Shown in pieces: positions 8,301 through 25,868 of a stretch of 64,000 nucleotides of DNA. The translations under genes were made by a program, and so were the position numbers. Under the pieces are notes generated by a model that saw only the letters and a list, made by a program, of their open reading frames with translations, had not been told where the DNA came from and made no database searches. Source of the DNA: Parapristionchus giblindavisi (lineage: Eukaryota; Nematoda; Chromadorea; Rhabditida; Diplogasteridae); the NCBI GenBank assembly GCA_943737045.1, contig CALSFV010000018.1:992001-1056000 (forward strand). The letters run 5' to 3'. Position 1 is the first letter of the stretch. Each line of letters starts with the position of its first letter.

Positions 8301-11300
8301 ATTTATCTTTGATTCTTTATCATTCAGAATCTCTTTTAGATCATCAATTTGTCCTTCAACCTTCCTTCGTTTCTTCTTCTCCTCATTAACCAAACCATCA
8401 GCACGAGCGACGCGACTCTGAATTAGTGATCATTGATCTTTGAACTCACTTAACATTGAACCATGATCTTTGACCTTAGAACTCACTTATCATTGAACCT
8501 TGGTCTTTGATCTTTGAACTCACTTATCATTGAACCTTGTTCTTTGATCTTTGAACTCACTTATCATTGAACCATGATCTTTGACCTTTGAACTCACTTA
8601 TCATTGAACCTTGATCTTTGATCTTTGAACTCACTTAACATTGAACCTTGATCTTTGATCTTTAACTTACCGACATATCAGCAATTGTCCTTTGTAATTC
8701 GTTATTTGTATCAGATATCCTCTTCACTTTCTCCATAAGTTCCTCTCGATCAACTTGGGATCTGGAATGTTTTTGGTTTCATTTTTAGTAATAAAATTCC
8801 GAGATCATGGAATCGAAAAAAATAAAACATATATTAGATGTGACAAATATGTAGCAAAAAGGTGTATGTAATTTTGATGAATGAAAGCGACATACTTGGT
8901 GAGATCCAACTGCATATTATTCCTCTGTTCATTCAATCGATCATGAACTGCTTCCATCTCATCAAATCTACCAAGTAATTCTTCATATTCTCTCTCAATA
9001 TTCTCCTTATCACTACGTTCACGTTCAAGAAGTGCAGTTAACTGAAATGGATCGATAATCTTCTCTCTGGCCACACTCACGCTTTATCTGACTGATAAAG
9101 TGTGTGTCCAGAGCGGAGAGTTTCAGCCTAAATTGTTGGTCTCTAAGGTTTCGGCAATTATGAGACTAATAATAATCAAGTACGTGGCTATTGAAAACAA
9201 AGTTTCATAACATCAAAAAGAGTTGAGTTGTTTTAAATCGTTCTGTGAATCATCAGGCGTAGTTACTAATAGAAAAATAACTTAACTTTCAAGATTATAT
9301 TGATATATTGTTATTGTTTTTGTTTTCAATAATCATACCCTTTTGATCTCCTTTTCCATTTCCTCTTTCTCCAATTGTAATCGATCGCTTGTACGTTCAT
9401 ACTCTCGCAGATGCTCACTCATTTTCTGTAAATTAACCAATCATTATTGTTTTAGATAATCGATAATCAGGAAACATTAATAAAGCAATATTTACCAAAA
9501 CTTTGGCGTGTTGTTCGGCGAATTTCTTCTCGAGTAACGCCATCATGTCTTCGCCTCGCTTCATCTGAGATAAAGATATGATAAGATTGTGAAAGGTTTT
9601 GATGATAAGAGATATTGATCTATCAATCGTATGAATCTATCATGAATTGTTCACTGATAGAAAGAAAATAGTGGATCTCTTCGCGGTCCAAACACTATAC
9701 CCACACTCTCTTAAAATCTGTTCAAGTCTTAAGATCTTCAAAACATTAATGAACGAATTTGCTCGGTTTTGCGACTTCTATTATATAATCTCTGATCATC
9801 AACGCATAATATCAATAATTTTTACCTCGTCGGCCATATCCAACTTTTCACGTCTCAAATTTGCCATCGCATCTTTGGCCATTCTACTGGCATTTTCTTC
9901 ATTGGATCGAGACTCGGTTAGTTCGTCACGAAGTTTATCCATTGCCTGAACAATTCAATTATCAGTTCACAGTTCGTATTTTTTTTTAATTGAGCTAAAT
10001 TTTATGCAAACAGTGAAGAGTGAAGTTGCATGTTTTCTCAGATTTTAGTTTTTTTTTGTCAAAAGGGAATATTTTCGAAAATCTTTTTCAACTACAAGAT
10101 CGACCTCACGCGGAGTTTCAAATATGCAAGCGAATGATTATATTTTACTCTCACTTCCTTCAATAAAGACTAACCTCCAACAATCGTTGATAATCGTAAT
10201 CTTTCTCTTTTATCTCTTCAGTCAATTCGACTATCCTTCTCTCCGCTTCTTCCAATTGTTCTTTCGTCCTCTCGATATTGATTAGAGGACAAACTCGTGA
10301 CCACAAATCGAACCACTCCCAACTGAAATCACACAATAAATATATTGATTATTGATTATCTTTATCACAAGTTTAGTATTTCTTTGTCCTACGTGACTAG
10401 GGCTAATTGTTGAAGTGTCAGACAAATTATTTAAGAAAACAAATAATAAGGGATTATTTTAACATCGCATCTCACTTGCAGAGATGAGCAAACTTTCGGA
10501 CGTTGTATTGGACAGTAACGAGAGCTTCTCTGAAATTTCAATCTTCATCTACATTATTGTGTTTTAAAATACCTTTCGTTCTCAAGTTTGCACAACCGTT
10601 TCTGTTCGAGGTGCCACCTTGTGTAAGCTTGTAGACCAATCAGTAGATGAGACAATCGAGCTGTACGCCTGTTTTCCAACTGAAAAATTAGAGACTATTA
10701 ACATATTATATCATATGCCACCATACAATGTGATCATGGGCAATTTGGTCAAAATAGATGAATAAAAGCCAGCCTGAGACGAAGTAACCACCATGAAACT
10801 ATAGTATAAGATTAATGGCATACACTATTCTCTCGAATCACGCCTCCTTCACATAATCTTAGCCTATTCATCGGTTTATAGACCAGATGTGCTTCATGAG
10901 AATTTAAATCTACCGAAAGGCATTTCAGACTATCACATCTGACTATGTATTTAGAGAAAATGAATCCCCTCTACTGATATATCATGTCATTCATGAGGAA
11001 TTTTAAACGTAGGCAAGCGTATGTAGAGCCGTCTCCACCCCTTTCGCTATATCACTTTAAAATAAATTTATTATTATTGAATTAAATTTATTGATATCAA
11101 TTTTCAATAAAAGTATGCTCTCCGGTATGGTTCCGGAACTATGGAAAAAAGCGTTAGTTAAACCAATCCCGAAAGCATCTGGTAATAATTCGATCACAAA
11201 CTTCAGGCCTATTTCTTTAACATGCTCTATTACGAAAATTTTTGAGAAAATTCTAATTGATAAAATTGTAGAACATATGAACGCATTTGACCTATTTGAT

Positions 11301-14300
11301 GCTTGTCAGGCTGGATTCAGAAGTAAAAGATCTACAGCAACTCAACTAGTTGAAACATGTTCATACTATCTCTCACTCCATTCTAAGAAAAAATCTTTCG
11401 ACACTGTATTCTTTGATTATAAATAAGCTTTCGACTCCATAGATCATCGATTATTACTTTACAAACTTTCACTCTTAGGTGGTAAAGGATTTGGGCATAT
11501 TAATGTCGCCTAATTTAAGTTTCAAGTCCCATATTAATAAAGCTGTTCGTAAAGCCAGATCAAAAATTAATATTCTATTTAGAACTTTCCGTAGTCGCGA
11601 AATTGAGGTCTACAAAACCGCTTATACGTCTTTCATATTGCCTATTATTAGCTATGGTTCAGTTGTTTGGAATTCTAAAAGATCTGGATTGACAAAAGAA
11701 ATTGAATCTGTTCAGAGAGATTTTACTCGAAGACTATTCAGTCGTTGTTCGATTCCTTATGATACTTATCTCAATCGTGTTCACTTCCTAGATTTAATTA
11801 CGCTCGAACATAGACACGCGATAACAGATTTGCTTTTCCTACATAATTCAATCCATCAAAATTATGAGTACAATTCCTCTTTCCTCTTTAAAGTTGTTCC
11901 CGCTTTGCATCTGAGGAACGGCAATTCGTTGAGAATTATTCTACCTTTCAAAATATCAACCACTTCCCATTCAACATTACCCTCACGAATTATTGATATT
12001 TGGAATAATCTCCCTGATGCTATTGTGCAGGCTTCACCAACAGTCTTTCGTAATCATGTTAAAAATATCCCATATAATGTGATTGTCCCTGAGGTACATA
12101 TTCACTCATGAAATGTTCTGAATTGGTAACATTCCTGCTGCCTCTTCCTCCACCCCCACATCTCACCGATTCGCCTTGGCGACGGACATCCTTCACAAGA
12201 CTATCTAACAGATATTCCCGATCCCCATCCCCGATGCGTTCATTTGAAGGAATAAAATATTATTATTATTATTATTATACAGTAAGTTTCATACCTTAGC
12301 TACAACTCCAACTCTCAATAACACTTTAGTCCTTCCAACTCTATATGACTCCTCTTCATTATTCAGAATTTCCTCACACAGACATAGTGCAGCTTCCCGA
12401 CCTGTCCAGTTCAATCTGCAATATTCATTCATTTATTCATTGCCATCGTCTAGCAAAAAGTGACTCCCAAAGACAAAAGCCCAGAAACAATTGTCCGAAC
12501 TAATAATCTACTCTCGACCACAGCAGTACCGATGAGAGGGAATGTAGTAGTCTTATGTATCATGAAGTGTGAAAGAGGGAAATGAGAAAAATAGAAGCAA
12601 AGGAAGATAGAATTATATTGTGGCCGATGCCACAGCATGTCATAGCCGTCACCTCTCTCGCCTTAGCCTAAGCCGAGAGGGCAGAGGAAGGAGTGATCTT
12701 TTTTACAAGGGACGCAAATTTCGAAACAGAATTAAGCATCGTATTAAATAATTCTTTTCACACGAAATGATTCCCCTGTTAATGTCTTACTCTTCTTCAC
12801 ATCGGGATAAGAAAAATGTAGGCACTAAATAGTTACCTCATGCTATTCGTTGAAATCGCTCGGTATCTTTTGATGAACTGTTCGAACGGCATACGAGTGG
12901 GAAAGCCTTTGCGGCAAATGCGAATTCCCTCTAGTACACCATTACATCTGAAAAAAAAGAAAGATCAGTCTTCTCGTGAGAAACATATTCCGTGCCCGGT
13001 TAGCTCAGTCGGTAGAGCACCAGACTCTTAATCTGGCTGTCGCGGGTTCGAGCCCCGCATCGGGCTGTAAAATTTTTGCAATTTTTCCACCCCACTCTCA
13101 ACTTATAATTCGCCCTCTTGAACAATAATAAGTTAATCTCTTCTATTTATTTGATCTTCTCGTTTAATTTTATATATTAGTAGTATGATGTAACCTCAAT
13201 TGATGGAGTACCAATGGACGATTGGTCACAAGAGGCTGACTCTCTCGATTAGGCAGAATACATCTCACGAAATGGGATTGTGAATTCTCAAGGAGTGAGA
13301 TGAGGGAGGAAAGTTGCTGCTGAAAAATTAAAATTTCATTAGTTTATACTTCGCCGAAATGAATAAAGAAATGAAAGTAGATTGAACTCTCGTCTATTTT
13401 CACATTATCTCCTTTTCCTATAAAACAATGAAGAAAATAGATTAGATGCTGCAGATTGACCGTACTCGATATGTGAAGGATACAGTACTGCATGAAGGAG
13501 GTCGGATCGATAGTCGTCTACGGTTATTATCCATACTACTCGGGGGAGGAAGATCTTCTATAAGATATTGTTAATTGATTCGAAATATCGATTTATTGTT
13601 CCAATTCTGGAGTACCTTTCGGGAACAACTCCATAACGAGTTTATGGGTAGATGATGAAATCATCTCGAAAATGCCACGATCTACAGTGTCCTGAAATAT
13701 ATATTTATCTACTGTAAGGATTGGAGGATACGGTAGCTATTACGTGAATTGAATATTTCTAACCTTATTCTTCTCTAGCCATCTATTCACATTGTAATCA
13801 ACTTGACCAGCATAATGAACAATGGAGAAGTGTTTGATTATCGACGATCTTAATTATTTTTGTCGAATACATTTTAAAGAAATAGAGATCTCTGATATAT
13901 GAAAGGTCGTGTACTGATAAAGCGTACTCTATCGCGAAACCTTCAAATCTCCAGGAAATGTATAGTATGGCCTACTTCTGTGAGTGTTTTGGTCTCATTA
14001 ATGATGGATGCCCCTTGTGTTTATCGAGTATTTTATCCAATAAACGATTCTCTTGTCCATTTGGTACAACACATTCTTCTTCAAGAAGTGAGAAGATTCC
14101 AAGATTCTTAAAATATATTATGAAATTTAATTAAATAAGACTTCATGCGTAGTCTGATCAACTCTGGCCACATTTCAATAGTGGAAAGTCTCAAATGTGT
14201 TTGCAATCTTTCAAAGTAGAGAGAAAAAATAAAGAAAAATACCTGATCACATAGTGATATAGTGGGGTGCAAGTCAATCGCATAATTTTCACACGACCAC

Positions 14301-17300
14301 TCTATTCCCTCATCCTCATACTCTTTTCGCTCCTAAAATATTTTTTAAATGATTTAATTATGATTTTCGTTATTTAATTATTTAATATTCGATTCGGTTA
14401 CCTTGACGAACATGTAATGATTGAACAACTGTTGTAGACGTTCATTCGTGTAGTTGATACAGAGTTGTTCAAATGAATTGATCTAAAAGAGTGATAACGA
14501 ATGTTCTGAGAACATCAAGAGAATGTTTGGCTCGATCAATTTTCATCAATTGCTAATTCAAAACTCTTCAGCTCTTTGAAATAAACTCTTAGAAGTCAAA
14601 CCGCCATCATCTCGAATCCAGCCATGTCCAACACTCCAATGTATTGTCCCTCATTGTCCCCTTCACATGACGAATTGATCGCTTCGTTACATCTAAAGTA
14701 CGGTATATATGAGCAATCATCGATCAATGAAATACCGTTCATTGGCATCAAAGAAATAATAAAAGTAAGAGATCGTTCCGCTTTCTTTTACTAACTAATT
14801 AACCTTTTAAGAATCCATTTGAACAATCGTTCGTAGAGGAGTTTGGCGAGAGCTGCCGCGGATGCTAAGGTCTACAATATAACAATTGGAACACCTCAAA
14901 ATTCAGTGGAGGCTCATCTTCCAAAAACATAAAAAAGGAAATCTCGTATCATAAAACAATGAATAATATGATCATACAAACCTTGACTAGATTCTGATTT
15001 TTCTTCACTGTTCTTCCATTCACTTCCATTTCTGGATTAGTGAGCGCAGCTTCAAGTGAATCAACTTTCAGTCCAAGTAAATCAGCTGCCCAGCACAATT
15101 CTGCAATTTTAATTATATTATAGTTATCTGATGGAAGAACCGTTGGAGGACTATCGGTTCCAAAATAAAACATCACCGAAAAAAAGCACTGTACATCTTC
15201 ATAAAAAGAACTTTCATATATTATTTGTATTATATCGTAATTTTAAACATAACCTCCTCGACTCTTAACGAAACTGATATCCATTCCAGATCGTTCAGTA
15301 AAATCAATCTCTCCAATCAGCAAACACGCAGCCACAATCTTAATATTTTTACCAAAATTAAAAGACTTATTTTATACTTAATTTAATTATACTAAATTTA
15401 TACTTAATTTTTAATTATCTCCAATTGATTTGAATGATTCAGATGTTTGACCATGTTCTCCATTACGATTTTTTATCTTTGATTGCATTTGATCATAACA
15501 CAATTATGGATGGATTTACAAATTTTCTTCAATGTGTTTTGTGTTATGAAGAAGTAAGTACATTTTTTGATTTCCAAAATGTGATCAGAAACGGGGAAAA
15601 CGAATACTATCGTTTTCTTTGGGATTGGCATTGAAATAATACTGAAGGAGATGTAAGATACCTCATAGACTCTCATTCGGGCTGTTTCATCCACACCCAA
15701 GTTGAGTAGATGTCTCTGAAATGTCTCTCTCATGTCTATCATAATATTGATCGGATTATATACGCTCATGGAAAGATTGAATATTTTGTAGAAGTGGATG
15801 AGATAAGATGAATGAAACGGTTTTGTGTAAATTTCACTTACATTTGTTTGATGCATTTCTCTCGCATCGTCAATTGTCTTCGATGGATTCTCATTCAAAT
15901 ATTTGTATCGAGGAGCAACGAGGTGAAGGTGTTGTCTGAAATTTGATTTAGATATAGAACCTTGAATTTACTACACTAATGAAAATTGTTGCGTTTCCCG
16001 GCAAAGAGAAATGTAGTACTTTTTCAACAGTTTTACAGTGAAATTTGACAGATTTTCATAAACCTATTTATATTTGTCTCTAATTGTCTGCATTTCTATC
16101 ACAATGAATCGAAAACTCACTTCATTTGGGCTGGCATAGCAGATGAAAGTAGTTGATAGAAGACATGAAAGCCTCTTTCTCCTCGGTCTTGTGCCACTAC
16201 TCGACTCTTCTCCAGAAGATCTGTTAATCAACATTAAATTATAAAATAAATTTCAAAAATTCATTGTAATTCTATGATTTTAGTTGAGTGTAATGAATGT
16301 TGGCGACGCAGCGATAAAAAAACATTTAAAAAATGTAACTTACAACACTCGACTTGTGCACATTTCAACTTCCCTTCTCGCGTTAAAAACAATCGGATGA
16401 ACTTTCCCTGTTATGTAAAATGATTTAAAGAGATAATTAATTAAATAGTAATTTTTGAGATGAAATCTTACAAATCGTGAAGAGTTTTCATTGTGCACAG
16501 TCATAGCATTTCCGAATGATTCCAGTAACTGTGTGAATTCTAACACGCGAGAGTCCGATTTTAGTACCCTTTCTGAAAATGTTTATTGACCGTATTAAAT
16601 ACACTTGTTTATTTGGTACGAGAGTAGCCATCCAGAGCCACAATGAATTTCTATGTTTAGAGAGAGAATCCAAGCGAGATAGTACGTAGATCAGAGAGAG
16701 CGTGAGAAGGGAAGTGAGGGAAAGGGGGGTTGATCGATAGTATATTTTTGCGTTTAGCAGCAGAAAAAAAGAGCAAGGGACAATAACATTATATACGGAC
16801 TATATGTACTATTTTGCAGATTTTTCATGGTATTAACCAAATATGGTAAAATATTTTTGTTTGTTTGATTAGCATTACTATTTATAAAATGAACTTACTA
16901 TCATCATTCCTCTGTACGATAAACTCGATGATTCTCTTCGTGTTTTCTGTCTTGCCTGATCCACTCTCTCCACTTAAATAATATTCACTTTTTTTTTAAA
17001 TAAAATCCGAAAATACAATAATATGCTTAATATTATTACAGTTTGGACATCATATGAGGCCGTTTGCGTAAGAGTCGACTAAAATATGTGAAATCTGGCA
17101 CAGTGAAAAAATTAAATTTTGGGGATCGGGGTTCTCAAGGGTGCTGATAACGATGGTCATGTTCATTTTTCACCTAAAGCCACCGTTGAGGCCGTTGAGG
17201 TCGCGTTGAAATCGCGTTTTCAGTCATTTCTGTTCAACCGGTAGTACTAAAATTTGCAGACTTTGCACCCAGGGGCAGAATTTGATGACGATCACGCCTG

Positions 17301-20300
17301 TCTAATTCATTTTTCATGAAAAAGTTTCCGAAATTATCAAAATTCGAATTACTCTCAATGGCCATAGTATGCGAGTGAGATACATAGATCGGACCGTAAT
17401 GACTTCAGGATCTCATAAAAAAATTTCAGCCAATTTGGAGAAGGTACTTTTGAGATAATCAACTTTAAGTGCAGTCAGATTGACGTTGAAAGAGAGGCAA
17501 TACCGTCATTTGATCTACCTCCTTGACTCTCTTCCCCCGATCGATAGGCACCCACGATCGATAAGACAGGCGGTCTCTTTCCTCTACTACATACTCTATC
17601 GTCTCACAGATGAATTGAGGGACTCCTGTTATGAGCATTGTGTGGGTAGAAGTTAAAATAGCATTAACAATTTATCGTTGTTGTAGAGTTAAGAAAGAAC
17701 AGTCATAAAACAACTATTCAGATCAGAATGATAACAAAAAAGCATGAAAGCCTCGACAAAACTACTACTCCTCTTCACTATAAATCTCTTCAAAAATCTT
17801 TTTACGCGATTTCAGGAGGGAAAGTCCACCGGACGATGAAGACGAACGTGTACTCTTCCCATCACTCCAATTGTTGATGAACCAGCTGAGAATACAATTG
17901 ATGCGAAAGAGGTATGAATAAACATTGTGAGTGATCATCTTCTCCGCCTTTACAGAAGTCAAAGTCATCAAGAGTACTTCGTACTCAGAAGAAAGGGAAT
18001 GGAGAAGACCTACTATGAGATTAGTTCAGATGAAGAAGTCGACGAGTTCACATCGATGATGAACACCGTCAACGATCTTTATGAAGAGATTTATAGTGAA
18101 GAGGAGTAGTAGTTTTGTCGAGGCTTTCATGCTTTTTTTGTTATCATTCTGATCTGAATAGTTGTTTTATGACTGTTCTTTCTTAACTCTACAACAACGA
18201 TAAATTGTTAATGCTATTTTAACTTCTACCCACACAATGCTCATAACAGGAGTCCCTCAATTCATCTGTGAGACGATAGAGTATGTAGTATAGGGTGGCG
18301 AGAATGACTCTTCACTCACCAGTTCCCCTGGCAGTCTTGTGCAAGTACTCGCGAGACTCTGGTTTTTTTCTCCCAGTGGGGCCCCAGCAAAAGTGGGCGT
18401 GGTTTTGCTCCCCCAGTGGTTTCCCAGGACAAGAGAGTGCTCTAAAGATGGCAAATCATGCAGATTTCTTCTCACTGGTCCCCCAGTAAATCTCCCACTG
18501 GTCCCCCAGACAAAACCATGCGACCACGAGTATGAAACTGCGCGCTCGTCATACATTTGACAAAGTGTTCTATTCATTGGACGCGCTGCGGCTCTTAGCG
18601 TGAGCGTTGCGTTCGGCGTCTTTTAATTTTTTTCTTATTTATATGTTTTGTTTTACCAATCCTATGGAATAAGTATAATTTCATTTAAGTTCAATAGGGT
18701 AATATGCCGACGCGTAGTCGAGATCAACGGATGATGAATCGGAGAAAGGTATATTATTCTATTTAACTATTCTTCAAGTCAATTGTATTTCTTGATAAAA
18801 ATATGGAAAACTTGAAAAGAACAGTCTTCATACATCCCCTTTCATGTCAACTTATTACCCTCTTTCAGACGTTTGTGGCTACGAGTCTGAATATTTGAAG
18901 ATTTTGGGTATTTCTAGAGTTGGAACAACACTTGGAGGACTGAATTTTCAAATATATTGCGTCAATGGGTTTGCGTTTTCACTTATTTACTAAATTGTTT
19001 TATAGAAATATTAACTACTTTGTAATTTTCCAAAGTTCTGCGTATTCTGCTCTTAAAATACAATGCTACTAATTAATTCTAATTTCAGCAAGTCTAGCGT
19101 TCACTTTTTCGCTTCATGGGCCATAGTGCAGCCAACTGAATACTGTGAGTTCTTCCACATGTTCATTTACGATCCTAGTTATTTTGCTACCGATTAAATT
19201 GCATGCTAAGAAAAATAAAATTACTCATGAGCATTCGTTTCCTTGACCTGTAACGAATGGTAGGCCACTCATAGATCCATTCATACTAGAGCGGCGAGAA
19301 TTGCTCTCGAATGAGCCTGTTTTGTAGTCTCTATCGAGTCGAGGTCAAATGGAGAGGATATTCGTTCCCCTTGGCAGTCTCTATCTCTCTCCCTCGGATA
19401 ATCGTTTTTAGGTCGAATCGAAGTCGAGTCGAGCGTTTTTCAAGGCCGTGTTTGAACAAAACTAGACAAATTATGCATATTTGAAATCAGCATAACGAGA
19501 TCTTTAAAATGATAGACAATTCGCATCAAATAATTCAAATTCAAATTTCTCTTTTTCTTTGATGAGTACCGTATCCCAATACAGTAAATGGGATATGAGT
19601 GAGATTGAAGAGTTTGAATCTGATGACGAATTGGAACTTTAATAATAGTTTTGCCATAATGATTGTTATCAAATTAATATTATTATTGTATCATAAACCA
19701 ACAAATTATTAACAAAACATTTTTTGAAAAAAATTGTTAAATTTGGCTTCGTTTTATAGCACTTAATGAGCTCATGTCAGAAGTTTAAAAAGTTTTGAAT
19801 TTGGTCAATGCAGCGCTGAGAAAAACCTTTCCATTCGATTTCGACTCGACTGTTTTTTGACTATTCGAGACAATGACCCCCTCTCCCGGCTCATTCGATG
19901 AGAGAGAGATCGTAAATGCCTCTCTCCCCGATAACTCGGCCAAGACTGCCAGTGGGAACGAATACTCTTGCGCCATTCTTGCCACCCTAATTCATACCCT
20001 CTGGCAGCTCTACTCCGATTGAGTGGTCTTGCAACCAGTGAAAAAAGAATACGCGTTTTTCTAAGCCATGCATGGACGAAAATCGATAACTGATGTATCG
20101 TTGAAATTAGAATAAGGAAGTGTTTGAAATCACAATGCACAATTTCTATGGGATTATTAATAGTGGATGACTAATTGGGAGATTGTTATTAAAAATTCAA
20201 TACTTTTCAGTTGGTATGGAAAGAGCAAGATGTGAGGAAATCGTCAAGTTTGACTGAGAAGAATGTTCAGCATAATTCATTGAACGGGTCAATGAATCAG

Positions 20301-23300
20301 AAGGATATTAAGAAGATGGCCAGCTAAGAGGATTAAGTGATCTTTGATCGCTAGTTTCTGTCCTTTGATTTCTTTCTGTGTTATAACAGTACCTTTTCAT
20401 GTCATGTAATCATTATCGAATGTTATATGCCCCTCCTCTAATCTTTCAATATATTCAGACCGGCAAAACGACCAAACTTTTGGTCCCCTAGAACCTTTGA
20501 GATTTGGCATTTACAAGCTCTAGAATAGTTACTTTGTTGAGTTTGTTATGCTATTTTATTTATTGTATATTATTCTGAATGTATTCGTATCGTCCATACT
20601 TGGATAAACAGTCATTTCACTATAACTCTCTTCTCTACAATATCACAGTACAAGACCACGCCCACTCCCCACTGGGACACTAAATTTTCTCCCACTGGTC
20701 CCCCAGTGCCTATCTCCTCCCCAGTGGTCCCCCAGTAAATCTCCCACTGGTCCCCTAGCTCCATCCCCACTGGGAAATCTACTGGGGGACCAGTGGGAAA
20801 TAAAAACCAGAGGAGAGGTCATTTACGACCTCTCTCTCGTCAAGTACTTGCAATGAGATCAGAAAAACACTGGTGAGCAGAAAAAAGCAATTCTTTTTTC
20901 GATTCACTTGGGTTTTCTCTGGTCAAAGTGGTCAAAATGTGCACATCTGAATATTTTTGGAATCTACACACCAATAGCTATTCAATAAGCATAAAATCGA
21001 CTGTTAAGTACACTTTTAAATTTCGTTGATTTGTCATGTTATGCATGCCATAAATTCGGATCAGACTATGATAATATCATATATTTTTATTATGTTAGTA
21101 CAGTAAACTCGAATTACAATTAAAACTCTTCTTCATCGTCTTCTGAGAGACTCTAATTGATAGTATTCATTACATGAGAAATCAACGAAATTTAAAAGTG
21201 TACTTTGACAATCGATTTTATGCTTGTTGAATAGCCACTGACATGTAGATTCCAAAAATATTCACATTTGCACATTTCGACCACTCAGAGCAGAGAAAAC
21301 CCAAGTGAATCGAAAAAGAACTGTTTTTTCGACTCACTTGTGACCTCAGCGAACGGCTGCCAGGGGGAACGAGTGAGCAGTTAGAGAGACTGCTCACCAG
21401 TTGGAGGGAGGCAAAACAGGTGAGTGAAGAGTCATTCTCGCCACCCTAATGTAGTAGAGGAAAGAGACCGCCTGTGTTATCGATCGTGGGTGCCTATCGA
21501 TCGGGGGAAGAGAGTCAAGGAGGTAGATCAAATGACGGTATTGCCTCTCTTTCAACGTCAATCTGACTGCACTTAAAGTTGATTATCTCAAAAGTACCTT
21601 CTCCAAATTGGCTGAAATTTTTTTATGAGATCCTGAAGTCATTACGGTCCGATCTATGTATCTCACTCGCATACTATGGCCATTGAGAGTAATTCGAATT
21701 TTGATAATTTCGGAAACTTTTTCATGAAAAATGAATTAGACAGGCGTGATCGTCATCAAATTCTGCCCCTGGGTGCAAAGTCTGCAAATTTTAGTACTAC
21801 CGGTTGAACAGAAATGACTGAAAACGCGATTTCAACGCGACCTCAACGGCCTCAACGGTGGCTTTAGGTGAAAAATGAACATGACCATCGTTATCAGCAC
21901 CCTTGAGAACCCCGATCCCCAAAATTTAATTTTTTCACTGTGCCGGCACTTGGTCGGTTCTTACACAAGCGGCCTCATATGTTTGTTCTTGTGGGTTTCA
22001 GGATTTCTACAAATTTGTTATTAGATAAAATTCCGATGAATGAATTCGTAATCATCTTGTGACTTGATTGTTGTTTACTTCATTCACTAAGCTTCTCTAC
22101 TCTTCACTCACATTCAGCTTTGTTCTTCTTCTTCTTTTACTCATTCGCATTACGCTGAACCACAAATCACTCCCGTTTCGATGTACGGCACCTGTCTTTC
22201 TCTCACTCTCTCACTCTCTCACTCTCTCACTCTCTCACTCTCTCACTCTCTCACTCTCTCACTCTCTCACTCTCTCACTCTCTCACTCTCTCACTCTCTC
22301 ACTCTCTCACTCTTTCATTCCATCTTCCACTTTCTCTCCCTATTCACTTTTTCTCTATCTATCCGAGCTAGATGCTCATGAAACTACGCGCAGGGATGAA
22401 CATGAAAAACAACTGCGGATTCGTTTTCAGGGCAAATGATCAAAGGTTATACTATCTGTACTGCTGAAGTGCAGAAAGAATGTCTTCTGAGTGACAAAGA
22501 TCTTAGATCAACTTACGTGATCAGTATCGATTGACTTTTCTGTCCTGCAAAGCAAAGATAATAAGAACCATTTAGTACAATCATAGCTTTCATTGAGTAA
22601 TCTCTCTATCGTTTGATCCATCTACCTATATCTATCTATCTCAGTCCTCTATCTCTTCAACATCTCTATCTCACTAAGTATCTCATCAATCATATAATAT
22701 AAGTCAGGAGGACAAATCGCTCATGATTCTTGCATTATATCAATCATCCAGTAACTAGAATTCGGGAAATCTATTTTTAGAGTAAAGTATGACGAAGCGA
22801 ATTCTTACAATCATATGGCTCTTTCGAGTTATAAAACAACATATGCAAAGAAAATTGCTGATCTAGCGCGAAACTACCCCACAACTTTCTACAAATAAAG
22901 CTTATAATCTTTCAGAATAAAATACACTTATTAAAAAATATTTGGAATAGAAAGTATCGGACTGACCACACGCGATTCCATTGAGTGCTGATTGAGCTAT
23001 ATTGAATACGTGTGGAGGAAGATTACCAGAGAGACCTAATCGATATAATGATCGAATAGAATTGGAATAGATGTCCAAGTTCTTCCAAGGATTCACAACA
23101 ATACAGAATAGACCACAATTGGTCTGAAAAAGGATTTCATTATATGCGAATTTTTTATATCATTATTTGTAACGCGTTAAAAATATGAATCACACTTTAG
23201 TAATTCATATCGAAAACGGTTAATTCGCAATTCTTCAGCTGTGTTTCAATATTCTGTCACGATTCTATTTACCAGACAGACGAGAAAGTATTACAAATGT

Positions 23301-25868
23301 TTAGAGGTCATTCTGGCAATTAAAGTAATGGGGAATAATGTGATGCTAACGCCGATGAAGCTCCAAACAATTGGTAGTTTGGTGTAAACAGTCAAAGTAA
23401 GAGTTTTGTTGCGATACTATGATTTATATCATGATCATTCGTCTACTCTTACACTCATTCTTCTCATTTAACGAGGCCGCTGCAAAACATGTTTACGCAT
23501 CAGCTGAGTACGCTTCTGTCTCAGAAAAAGAATATACTTTATTTTTACACCGATTTTCTGGGTACATTTAGAACGCCAGAGTTCTTTATATTTTTGAATG
23601 AATAACTTACATGAATCAATGAATGGGAGAATCTCTTAGATAGTGTATGAAGTATGGTAGCAACATTTGGTTCGGATAGATCACATAGATCATCACTCAA
23701 TGTCTCATTTGAGATGGGAAGAAATGATAATTTGGGTAGACGACGCTGAAAATTATTTCATTTATCTTAAAATTTATTAAAATAATTTTTATTATTTTTT
23801 CAACAGCTATAAGAAATGCTGCGAAATTATCAGAGCAGAGAAATTAACCAATAGTGTGTTGCGACAACTACCGATATCCCTCTACCTAATCCAAAACTTG
23901 GTTCTCTTCTTTCATGATTCAAGTGGAAGGACGTTAAGATTTCTTATGAGTTTGATCTTTATTTCCAATCATTCCCTCTGCCCCCGCTTTTATGAGTGCG
24001 TGTAGTGTAGTAATGATGCTCATTATATTTATTGCATGGACTCGAAATATCATCATTGGAGAAAAAAGGTTACGTCAACTCGAAATCGCATGAAATATGC
24101 TTGTGTTTTCTTCAATCGAGCAAATATTTTGTCAAGAAGGAATAATCTCAACATTTGAATATATGCTGAGAGATTCTCCCAGTATTTAAACTGAACTTCT
24201 AACATTTGGGAAGAAGAATGGGGTGTGGGTAACTCAAATACCTCTTCTTTCTATCTATACTAATGAATGGGGAGGAAAGAAGCAGTTGTTGCTCTCTGCC
24301 AACACTCACTTTTTTCGTTTCTATCTATATCAATTCCCTTCCCTAGCAGTCTTTTTCTGCGTCACTGGATCGAGTGATTAAACACCTTCTACTATTGAGT
24401 TTGAGTGGAGATATAAAATGAACTCCTCTGAACTAGGAACGACTATTCACTACGGTCATTCAATCCACTTTACTCACAGAACTTTTTAATTCCACTCCAT
24501 GAATTCTACATCGAGCTATGAGTGGAGTTTAGTATAGTGGCTTTCTACAGTTGCTGTTGCTACTCATCATGAGCCCCAATTTACATGGTGATTTTGTCTT
24601 TGATGACTTCTCAAAGTATAGGAAGCGCGGTCGTTAAGTCGTTAGGAGTCTACTTCTACTAGAAAACCCGGCAAAGTTTATTACCATAGGGGACTAGGGC
24701 TAATATCCTGACAATGAGGGGTCGTCAGAAGTGCATATTGAGTGTGGGAGGGTGCAATCATAGTGAAATACGAAACATATGTGAAGATAGCGCTAACGGG
24801 GTGATTGAGTCAATTGAGAAAAGAAGAAATGAGCTGAATAGAGTTAGAGAAGGTTTAGTCATCATGATTAGAACACAAATAACCAGTGTCCAAGACAATT
24901 TTTTGATAGAACACGAAAAAATTAATATGAGATAGTTTTCGCTTTTTCCATCATTCATGACTCGAAAAATGTTCCAACACTATAGTAATTTTTTCTGCAC
25001 TTTGGACGGGGAATACTTGAAGGGAGTCCGAATATTGGATACTCTAGAAATTTTTCCCCGCGGGGCACCCTGTCATTCGCCCCGCGGGGCACCCTGCCGG
25101 GCACCCTGCGGGGCAGCTTGTTGAATCTCTGAAATGACAGGGTGCCCCGCGGGGTGAGCAACAGGGTACCCGGCGGGGAAACTAAAGGCAGGGTGCCCCG
25201 CGGGGTAGAGGGCTTAGACAGGGTGCCCCGCGGGGAGAAATTTCCAGAGTATAGATGGACAAATATAGAATAATGATGATTAGATAATATATTCCACTGA
25301 CTCTTTCATAGATTCCCTTTTGATTATGAAAAGCAATGACGATATCATCTGCAACGTTCTCAAGATGATCGACTAATCTGAACCCCTCCATGTCATCCTT
25401 AATATTTATCATTATTATTATTATTATCATTCGCTATGATATACATAAAACATGAGAAAAATTCAGTGGAACGAAAAAATAAGATTACTGAAAATTAGAA
25501 ATAAATCAAATTAAATTACCTTCATCCAGATCTGTTTCTTGTATGCGATGACCTTGCGTTCACGTTCCAGTTCATGATCAGGAACTCGAAGAAGTCTGGA
25601 AGGAAAGATCAAATTATAATAGAAATAGATCATACTTAAACATGCAAATGTACTTAGATATTTGTGAATCAAAAGTGGTTATTAGTAGAGCCGAGATTCA
25701 CTGTTTCGGTTAAAGACCAATTGTCATCCATCAAACTGTTATAGGCAAATATCAAAGATCAAATTTAGAAAGATCAAAGATCAATCTTCTTACTTGAGTG
25801 ATTGATTGATATCATCAGCTGAGGTGGAGGGGCCTCCATTACATGATGAGGCCCTCCAAGACATATCT
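5366..25868 (-). CDS. Myosin heavy chain, divergent class II/XVIII-like, many exons
   Basis: Actin-based ATPase motor with a coiled-coil tail. Recognisable minus-strand exons in order: 23749-23608, 23124-22990, 22547-22521 (QKSQSILIT), 16969-16905 with P-loop [13 protein letters not shown], 16572-16470 (LESFGNA..NENSSRF, switch I area), 16409-16344, 16219-16122, 15937-15842, 15720-15656, about 15340-15250, 15110-14991, 14871-14800, about 14695-14575 with relay DMAGFE, 14481-14402 ([16 protein letters not shown]), 14335-14245, 14105-13985, 13845-13760, 13690-13610, 13552-13462 (loop 2), 13315-13194 ([10 protein letters not shown]), 12947-12840 ([19 protein letters not shown]1-like), 12415-12298, 10679-10570 (IQ), 10541-10482, 10323-10174, then about 15 coiled-coil exons to TAA at 5366-5368. 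The tail is about 630 residues, shorter than the roughly 1100 of conventional myosin II. One donor near 7172 appears to be GC. The extreme N-terminus (ATG near 25866, behind TTCAG) is tentative. Confidence 0.88.
6400..6570. repeat. Cluster of TACGGTA/TACCGTA oligomers in a myosin intron
   Basis: Within about 170 bases ACGGTAGC, TACGGTGCGG, GGTTACGGTACC and GTACCTTGGG follow one another, giving many overlapping short palindromes. Similar oligomers are scattered through the whole window. No coding potential and no clear unit length. Confidence 0.5.
7489..8136. mobile_element. 648-bp fold-back element with 8-bp target duplication
   Basis: Lies in an intron of the myosin tail region. The two halves are inverted copies for roughly 280 bases each, from GGGGGCGATCGTTTTGCC at the left to its inverse at the right. 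TAAGATTC flanks both sides (7481-7488 and 8137-8144). The centre (about 7770-7830) is rich in ACCGTA oligomers. Reading frames here are mirror copies of each other and are not taken as genes. Confidence 0.85.
8192..8254. repeat. Perfect AT-rich palindrome
   Basis: About 60 bases read the same on both strands: TTTTTCATTGATAAACTAAT, then a TA run, then the inverse. It would form a strong hairpin in the myosin pre-mRNA intron. It may be the remnant of a fold-back element; no target duplication was seen. Confidence 0.7.
8428..8668. repeat. Minisatellite, unit about 38-40 bp, about six copies
   Basis: The unit contains ATTGAACCTTGATCTTTGA followed by ACTCACTTATC with minor changes between copies. 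It sits in a myosin intron between tail exons. The same GATCTTTGATCTTTGA word appears near 62880-63170 in the terminal palindrome, so it is dispersed in this genome. Confidence 0.8.
11056..12290 (+). pseudogene. Broken non-LTR retrotransposon (reverse transcriptase remnant)
   Basis: In a myosin intron, opposite strand. The first block (11091-11423) matches LINE-type reverse transcriptase fingers and palm: [46 protein letters not shown]. The motif A region FFDYK is followed by a stop and then [11 protein letters not shown], so the catalytic region carries a nonsense codon. Sequence then jumps at about 11478 into a C-terminal block ([34 protein letters not shown]), so motifs B and C (the YADD region) are deleted. 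The C-terminal block runs open to TGA near 12110. The 3' end has an ATT-repeat tail (about 12258-12282), typical of several LINE clades. No endonuclease domain remains. Dead copy. Confidence 0.9.
12994..13066 (+). tRNA. tRNA-Lys (CTT anticodon)
   Basis: Full cloverleaf of 73 bases. Acceptor arms GCCCGGT and ATCGGGC pair over seven bases, D stem GCTC/GAGC, anticodon stem CCAGA/TCTGG with loop CTCTTAA (anticodon CTT), T stem GCGGG/CCCGC with loop TTCGAGC. The internal A box TAGCTCAGTCGG and B box GGTTCGAGCCC are intact. A short T run follows (TAAAATTTTTG). It lies on the opposite strand inside a myosin intron, just upstream (in gene sense) of the SH1-like exon. The base at discriminator position 73 reads T where G or A would be usual for lysine tRNA. 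No intron. Confidence 0.95.
17927..18109 (+). CDS. Small acidic-tailed ORF in the loop of element A
   Basis: Sixty codons from ATG to TAG, reading [15 protein letters not shown], then [12 protein letters not shown] at the end. Because the tail lies in the inverted arm, the opposite-strand frame (17765-17971) ends with the same [16 protein letters not shown] near 17956 could make the second half an exon rather than a stand-alone ORF. No known domain. The tail resembles those in the other palindromic units at 19562, 21120 and 50086 in composition, not in sequence identity. Whether it is translated is unknown. Confidence 0.35.
   Translation: MSDHLLRLYRSQSHQEYFVLRRKGMEKTYYEISSDEEVDEFTSMMNTVNDLYEEIYSEEE
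18703..20261 (+). CDS. Exon-like blocks of an unrecognised gene carried inside element B
   Basis: Blocks with splice-like borders: 18703-18747 ([15 protein letters not shown], donor GTATAT); about 18869-18968 ([17 protein letters not shown], then [14 protein letters not shown]); about 19089-19141 ([18 protein letters not shown], donor GTGAGT); about 20211-20261 ([14 protein letters not shown] and stop). The last three join in one frame; the first does not phase with the second, so the start is uncertain or the copy is decayed. Element C sits in the last intron. The composition looks like ordinary protein and I do not recognise the family. It could be a gene fragment captured by the transposon or part of B's own coding region. 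An alternative frame of the last block is also open ([18 protein letters not shown] and onward). Confidence 0.4.
19287..19989. mobile_element. Element C: related hAT-like element nested in element B
   Basis: Begins TAGAGCGGCGAGAATTG and ends with the inverse of TAGGGTGGCAAGAATGG, clearly the same terminal family as B. A perfect 8-bp duplication ATTCATAC flanks it (19279-19286 and 19990-19997). It is 703 bp and non-autonomous. It contains a 27-codon frame (19562-19642) reading [15 protein letters not shown] at its end, followed by AT-rich sequence. Confidence 0.9.
19562..19642 (+). CDS. Tiny acidic-tailed frame in element C
   Basis: ATG to TAA, 26 residues, ending [15 protein letters not shown]. 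Too short to call a gene on its own; listed because a comparable Glu/Asp-rich terminal frame occurs in each palindromic unit in the window. It could be a last exon, as TTTGATGAG precedes it. Confidence 0.2.
   Translation: MSTVSQYSKWDMSEIEEFESDDELEL
20880..21335. repeat. Hairpin unit inside element B with acidic last-exon-like frame
   Basis: Left arm (about 20888-21040) and right arm (about 21175-21335) are inverted copies sharing TTCGATTCACTTGGGTTTTC, ATTTTTGGAATCTACA and AAGTGTACTT. In the loop the minus strand reads an acceptor-like AATTAG followed by [10 protein letters not shown] and stop at 21120-21122. This may be a further nested fold-back; no target duplication was identified. Confidence 0.6.
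22193..22315. repeat. 8-bp microsatellite (CTCTCTCA)n
   Basis: About fifteen near-perfect copies of an eight-base unit in the intron before the myosin P-loop. It gives long artificial Ser/Leu/His frames, which are rejected as genes. Confidence 0.95.
24714..24935 (+). CDS. 73-codon ORF of possible coding origin in a myosin intron
   Basis: Reads [19 protein letters not shown], then [17 protein letters not shown]: a Cys pair followed by a coiled-coil-like helix with a heptad feel. It has an ATG, a TGA/TAG-free course and ordinary amino-acid balance, unlike most frames here. It could be a fragment of a larger gene or transposon protein. No family assigned and no flanking splice sites required. 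Confidence 0.25.
   Translation: MRGRQKCILSVGGCNHSEIRNICEDSANGVIESIEKRRNELNRVREGLVIMIRTQITSVQDNFLIEHEKINMR
25042..25249. mobile_element. TA-flanked MITE packed with CCCCGCGGGG palindromes
   Basis: 208 bp, ends CTCTAGAAATTT and its near-inverse AAATTTCCAGAG, flanked by TA on both sides (25040-25041, 25250-25251), as for Tc1/mariner-type elements. The interior consists of about eight copies of CCCCGCGGGGCACCCTG, pointing one way in the left half and the opposite way in the right half. This is by far the most GC-rich stretch of the window. It lies in a 5' myosin intron. The element at 60454-60661 has the same length and CTCTGG-type ends but a different core. Confidence 0.8.

Follow-up and report, generated by a model that had tools for sequence, protein, structure and literature searches.

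A nest of four DNA transposons within a myosin intron of a roundworm

The window, a stretch of 64,000 nucleotides from the nematode Parapristionchus giblindavisi (contig CALSFV010000018.1, positions 992,001 to 1,056,000 of the forward strand), carries a myosin gene on its minus strand. Among the matches listed for the COX1 of this genome, read from locus L113, a Litoditis entry is 94% and a Caenorhabditis briggsae entry 92% identical, which places the host among the rhabditid nematodes. One exon of the myosin gene ends at 22517 and the next begins at 16972; together they read in frame as GQKSQSILITGESGSGKTENTKRIIEFIVQRNDD, and the intron between them has the donor GTAAGT and the acceptor TTTAAG. 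Three exons, joined and translated together with one stray residue at the start, matched 150 distinct sequences of solved structures, and the best among the matches listed were myosin-10, myosin-9 and heavy chains of the scallop striated-muscle type, which belong to class II. Moreover, the ORF at 22902-23159 alone gave a Myosin_head match of 44.6 bits. The host was confirmed as the P-loop intron of a myosin-II-like gene. The preliminary description of this DNA had correctly seen that the intron splits QSILIT from GESGSGKT, the P-loop, and had ended it at 16969, while its actual limits are 16973-22516. It is reasonable to expect that mis-splicing would hit the ATP site, which holds for any intron at that place.

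A tandem array of the 8-bp unit CTCTCACT occupies about 22197-22311 of the same intron. On the plus strand, pieces of a LINE-like reverse transcriptase lie at 11061-12111 beside the minus-strand myosin gene (RVT_1, 29.5 bits against a cut-off of 29.6). The minus-strand stretch 24955-25305 has a repetitive PRGTL-like translation and no Pfam match; it is perhaps another short repeat.

The intron contains a four-level stack of elements, in the order A, B', E and C from the outside to the inside. A nest of transposons had been recognized before, and the nesting is real; only three levels had been counted, however, since E, which sits between the outer element then called B and element C, was missed. 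The features are given below, with the strand for those of the host gene.

16897-16972, minus strand: stretch read as the P-loop exon (GESGSGKTENTK...) from the in-frame join; its 3' limit is not fixed
16973-22516, minus strand: myosin intron between QSILIT and GESGSGKT, from the in-frame exon join
17053-17054: TA target duplication of A, left, read from the flanks of A copies
17055-21977: element A, a palindromic foldback that measures 1,757 bp once its insertions are removed and has the termini TGAGGCC...GGCCTCA; end-to-end alignment of four uninterrupted copies gave 96.4-98.4% identity
18283-18290: ATGTAGTA, duplication of B', left
18291-18356: left piece of B' (hAT MITE, 702 bp in total)
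18357-19286: left piece of E (1,745 bp in total)
19279-19286: ATTCATAC, duplication of C, left copy; the final 8 bases of the left E piece
19287-19989: element C, hAT MITE of 703 bp, from genome copies and exact 8-bp duplications
19990-19997: ATTCATAC, duplication of C, right copy
19998-20812: right piece of E
20813-21448: right piece of B', starting with the second GA made by E
21449-21456: ATGTAGTA, duplication of B', right
21978-21979: TA target duplication of A, right, read from the flanks of A copies
22517-22546, minus strand: stretch read as the end of the upstream exon (GQKSQSILIT), from the in-frame join

The lengths add up without remainder: 1757+8+702+1745+8+703 = 4923 bp, exactly the span 17055-21977, where the 702 bp of B' include the additional GA that E made. 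We searched for copies of each piece in the same 251-Mb genome and scored only the best 40 candidates, so that the copy numbers below are lower bounds. Every piece is multicopy in this genome, and the stack is therefore not a product of chance.

Element A had been described as a long palindrome, which was confirmed, with limits at 17051..21981 that we correct to 17055-21977 plus a TA duplication. The TA stands directly at the TIR, at both ends, in all 17 other A copies read (7 + 10), among which L073/L074 and L081/L082 look like one duplicated insertion; the duplication of A is therefore TA within CATATG, a target palindrome around the TA. A 6-bp duplication of CATATG was rejected, because other copies, such as L014, L015, L017 and L020, show different hexamers at their two ends. 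In duplicating TA, A agrees with Tc1/mariner-like elements. A transposase for A was not recognized in the ORF lists, inspected by eye, of the longer copies L114 and L115 or of the tail-ORF copies L121 and L122, and a profile search with PF03184 returned no match, and none in its controls either.

Among foldback elements, Tm1 and Tc4 resemble A in that long inverted arms make up most of a short element, which is mostly without a transposase. Tc4 of C. elegans is a foldback element that duplicates TNA. Nematode Tm1 is described as having composite TIRs, a Mutator/Phantom-like transposase and a 9-bp duplication (PMC3169594), whereas A duplicates TA, not the 9 bp of the Mutator/Foldback type, and yielded no transposase in the searches above. 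One copy of the A family (L114, at G000:C231:303670-305450) contains LINE-type reverse-transcriptase ORFs, judged by eye, and on either side of it stands the reverse complement of the sequences that flank a shorter A copy at C231:190943-192581; the two may be the filled and the empty version of one duplicated insertion.

The right part of B' (20813-21448) occurs at at least 40 scored places with 97-100% identity, the window's included, and at two more with 70%, and the other B' copies measured are 701-704 bp long and uninterrupted. C likewise occurs at at least 40 scored places, at full or nearly full length and with 96-100% identity, the window's included, besides one 88-bp partial match. The two 8-bp duplications reported earlier for the window were confirmed in the sequence. 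Among the other copies examined, an exact 8-bp duplication flanks 14 of 14 of B' (L044 and L045, on one contig, share theirs and may be one event, which leaves perhaps 13) and 7 of 7 of C. At two places (G000:C257:122227-123571 and G000:C22:903626-905067) a B' copy of 98% identity adjoins, on the same strand, a more distant relative of 70%; these are possibly neighbouring landings, or one duplicated pair.

A profile search for the hAT dimerisation domain PF05699 (Dimer_Tnp_hAT) gave 21 matches, and none in 14 control genomes. Twelve of the hAT-domain loci were fetched; the B'/C terminal motif stands on both sides in five of them, on one side in three and on neither in four, and each of the five has an 8-bp duplication. 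Elements with the hAT domain and the termini of B' and C are thus present in this genome. Two of them, which we do not claim to be intact, are L063 (1822 bp between the TIRs, the B' terminus, an ORF ending in SFSDDDEEEF) and L072 (1422 bp, the C terminus, an ORF ending in EIEEFESDDELEL). Both ends of B' match L063 (85% and 95%) and both ends of C match L072 (96% and 95%), with the middle missing in each case, and a remnant of the tail is left in each MITE, SLSEDDEEEF in B' and SEIEEFESDDELEL in C. The matching blocks overlap in the query by 6 bases in B' and 5 in C, perhaps a sign of microhomology where the deletions occurred.

Membership of B' and C in the hAT superfamily follows from their 8-bp duplications and from the termini that they have in common with hAT-domain elements. 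Like hAT MITEs in general, they have such duplications, ends (TAGGG/TAGAG) of the TAGNG-like form, which is a terminal motif of hAT elements, and relatives with Dimer_Tnp_hAT and the same termini. They differ from the hAT superfamily in being only about 700 bp long and without a transposase, of which only codons of the acidic C-terminal tail are recognizable (SEDDEEEF in B', ESDDELEL in C). By their shortness (702 and 703 bp), lack of a transposase, many copies and derivation by internal deletion, both can be classed as MITEs. An alignment of B' with C covers only 96 columns at one end, with 77% identity; this and the matches to different hAT elements indicate two MITE lineages of one hAT group. 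Transposases of the L063-type and L072-type lineages would have moved B' and C in trans, and A and E, too, would have been mobilized in trans.

Element E has the termini CTCTGG...CCAGAG and is flanked in the window by the 2-bp duplication GA. Among 17 copies counted as having both ends read, the duplication is an exact 2 bp in 14 and CAT/CAT in two others, while the left end of the remaining one could not be placed; L031 and L053 had been set aside beforehand, since the usual right end is missing where it would be expected. The length of the duplication agrees with superfamilies that duplicate 2-3 bp, CACTA or another. The ends of E are not of the CACTA type, and E stays an unclassified inverted-repeat element, unrelated to B'.

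The order of insertion can be read from empty sites in uninterrupted copies. Four of four such A copies (L010-L013) run on unbroken through the site of B'. The site of E is likewise unbroken in 14 of 14 B' copies (L034-L047), each with a shorter GA run than the filled site has; this run has two bases in 13 copies and three in L039. Eight of eight E copies (L029, L032, L049, L050, L051, L053, L054 and L057) read straight through the site of C and have ATTCATAC there only once; they were drawn from 22 fetched E loci, a set in which several entries repeat the same place, and the others among these loci are interrupted or end early. As a result, A came before B', B' before E, and E before C. The relative order A, B, C given earlier is upheld by these sites and only lacked the step of E; the arm of A is indeed restored once 18291-21448 and a single duplication are removed. 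The empty site of A itself would be that read from the ends of other A copies; an allelic copy of the host flank was sought in the assembly, and the flank tried, which is single copy, matched only itself. Against the best relative aligned, A is 98.4% identical, B' 99.3%, E 99.06% and C 99.7%, so that B' and E stand slightly out of nesting order; nearest-relative identities, however, make weak clocks.

The preliminary description had taken 18291-21448 as one 3.2-kb transposon, B, into which C, a member of the same family, had inserted, which makes three elements in all. Its outer limits stand, with ATGTAGTA at both sides, and the case for a single element lies in the 34-bp inverted repeat and the 8-bp duplication at these outer ends and in the terminal motif common to B and C. 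The left part of this supposed element (18291-19286) was searched in the genome, and the best 40 of 324 candidates were scored, the window's included; the 39 other places match only from base 63-67, so that 18357 is an element boundary, and none of them joins B' to E. All 14 outer-element copies examined run straight across 18356/20813 without 18357-20812, and E is found alone elsewhere with its own termini and mostly with 2-bp duplications. B is therefore a composite of B' interrupted by E (18357-20812), and a single 3.2-kb element with C inside it is ruled out by uninterrupted B' copies and stand-alone E, which leaves the three-element reading next to no probability. C does extend over 19287-19989 with ATTCATAC at both sides, but its host is E. 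The claim that one family inserted into itself accordingly fails: C went into E, and the hAT-bearing elements matched by B' and by C are two different ones. It is just as hard to believe that the nest is an assembly artefact, in which copies of unrelated repeats were wrongly joined within the intron. The pieces all belong to high-copy repeats, a kind prone to misassembly, yet none of the elements falls short of the full length of its family, the region lies within a 1.44-Mb contig, and every insertion has the duplication expected of its family, which wrong joining is not expected to produce.

Almost certainly, four non-autonomous DNA transposons entered one intron by cut and paste, one after another, and so built the stack. 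In this reading the foldback element A would have inserted at the central TA of CATATG in the intron of the class-II-like myosin gene, the hAT MITE B' would then have landed in the right arm of A, the unrelated inverted-repeat element E would have entered B' with a 2-bp duplication, and the second hAT MITE, C, would have gone into E. The whole stack, a clean case of an everyday process, would be spliced out together with the intron.

The two arms of A in the window (17097-17592 and 21449-21944, 496 nt) are 100% identical only by rounding. We compared the arms of eight A copies, namely those of the window and of C42, C5, C205, C81, C31, C218 and C9. The window copy has 2 left-right substitutions over 685 aligned arm bases, plus small indels, and a difference between its two ends persists over about the last 46 bp. 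Left-right substitutions number 13 in C42, 11 in C5, 17 in C205 and 12 in C81, each in 685 bases, as well as 3 in 637 in C31, 20 in 636 in C218 and 15 in 650 in C9; six of the seven other copies thus have 11-20 differences, and C31 has 3.

These arms might be alike simply because A is young, not through copying from arm to arm, and the arms of the four close copies are also fairly alike (11-17 substitutions in 685). However, the left arm of the window copy agrees with the right arms at all six sites that are fixed between the arms in C42, C5, C205 and C81. With the six arms of C31, C218 and C9 as outgroup, the left-type base is found in 6/6 at columns 139 and 242 and in 5/6 at column 54; the right-arm base, absent from the outgroup at the first two columns and present in one of six arms at the third, looks derived, and these three sites point to a right arm copied onto the left. 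The other three do not support copying, since the outgroup has the right-type base in 6/6 at column 20 and in 5/6 at column 175, where this usual outgroup base is uninformative, and neither base at column 149. In an unrooted FastTree tree, the window arms and the right arms are split from the left and outgroup arms with a support of 0.958. The arms of one copy pair in four of the eight copies (window 0.863, C31 0.757, C9 0.932 and C218 0.982) and not in the other four; the split and the pairing of the window arms both speak against mere youth, which we regard as unlikely.

The best reading of these sites is that the right arm was copied onto the left in the window copy, with gap repair or hairpin-templated copying as the putative route. 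We lean, with some reserve, towards a broader view, in which the arms of A evolve in concert, one being repeatedly overwritten by the other within a copy, and arm identity records conversion, not age. With the insertion of B', and later of E and C, the palindrome came to be interrupted by 3.2 kb, which may have halted arm copying in this copy.

Nested DNA transposons are already well known, and the present stack is a complete, readable four-level case that introduces no new principle. In a study of maize and rice, nested insertions were found in 36% and 41%, respectively, of the candidate coding MULEs (PMC3903597). As in the nested transposons treated there, later elements interrupt earlier ones and the nesting gives the order; our case differs in having four levels, all of them non-autonomous, in an animal intron, and in its unusually complete record. 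A literature search found no title on this locus, which is not proof of absence. All four insertions at the locus are fully resolved, and each of the inner ones has its empty site, which makes the case usable as a worked example and helps to order element families in this nematode. The corrected reading stops two hAT MITE lineages and an unrelated element from being merged into one family. Moreover, the arms of A suggest that near-perfect foldback arms can stem from arm-to-arm copying and are unfit as an estimate of age.
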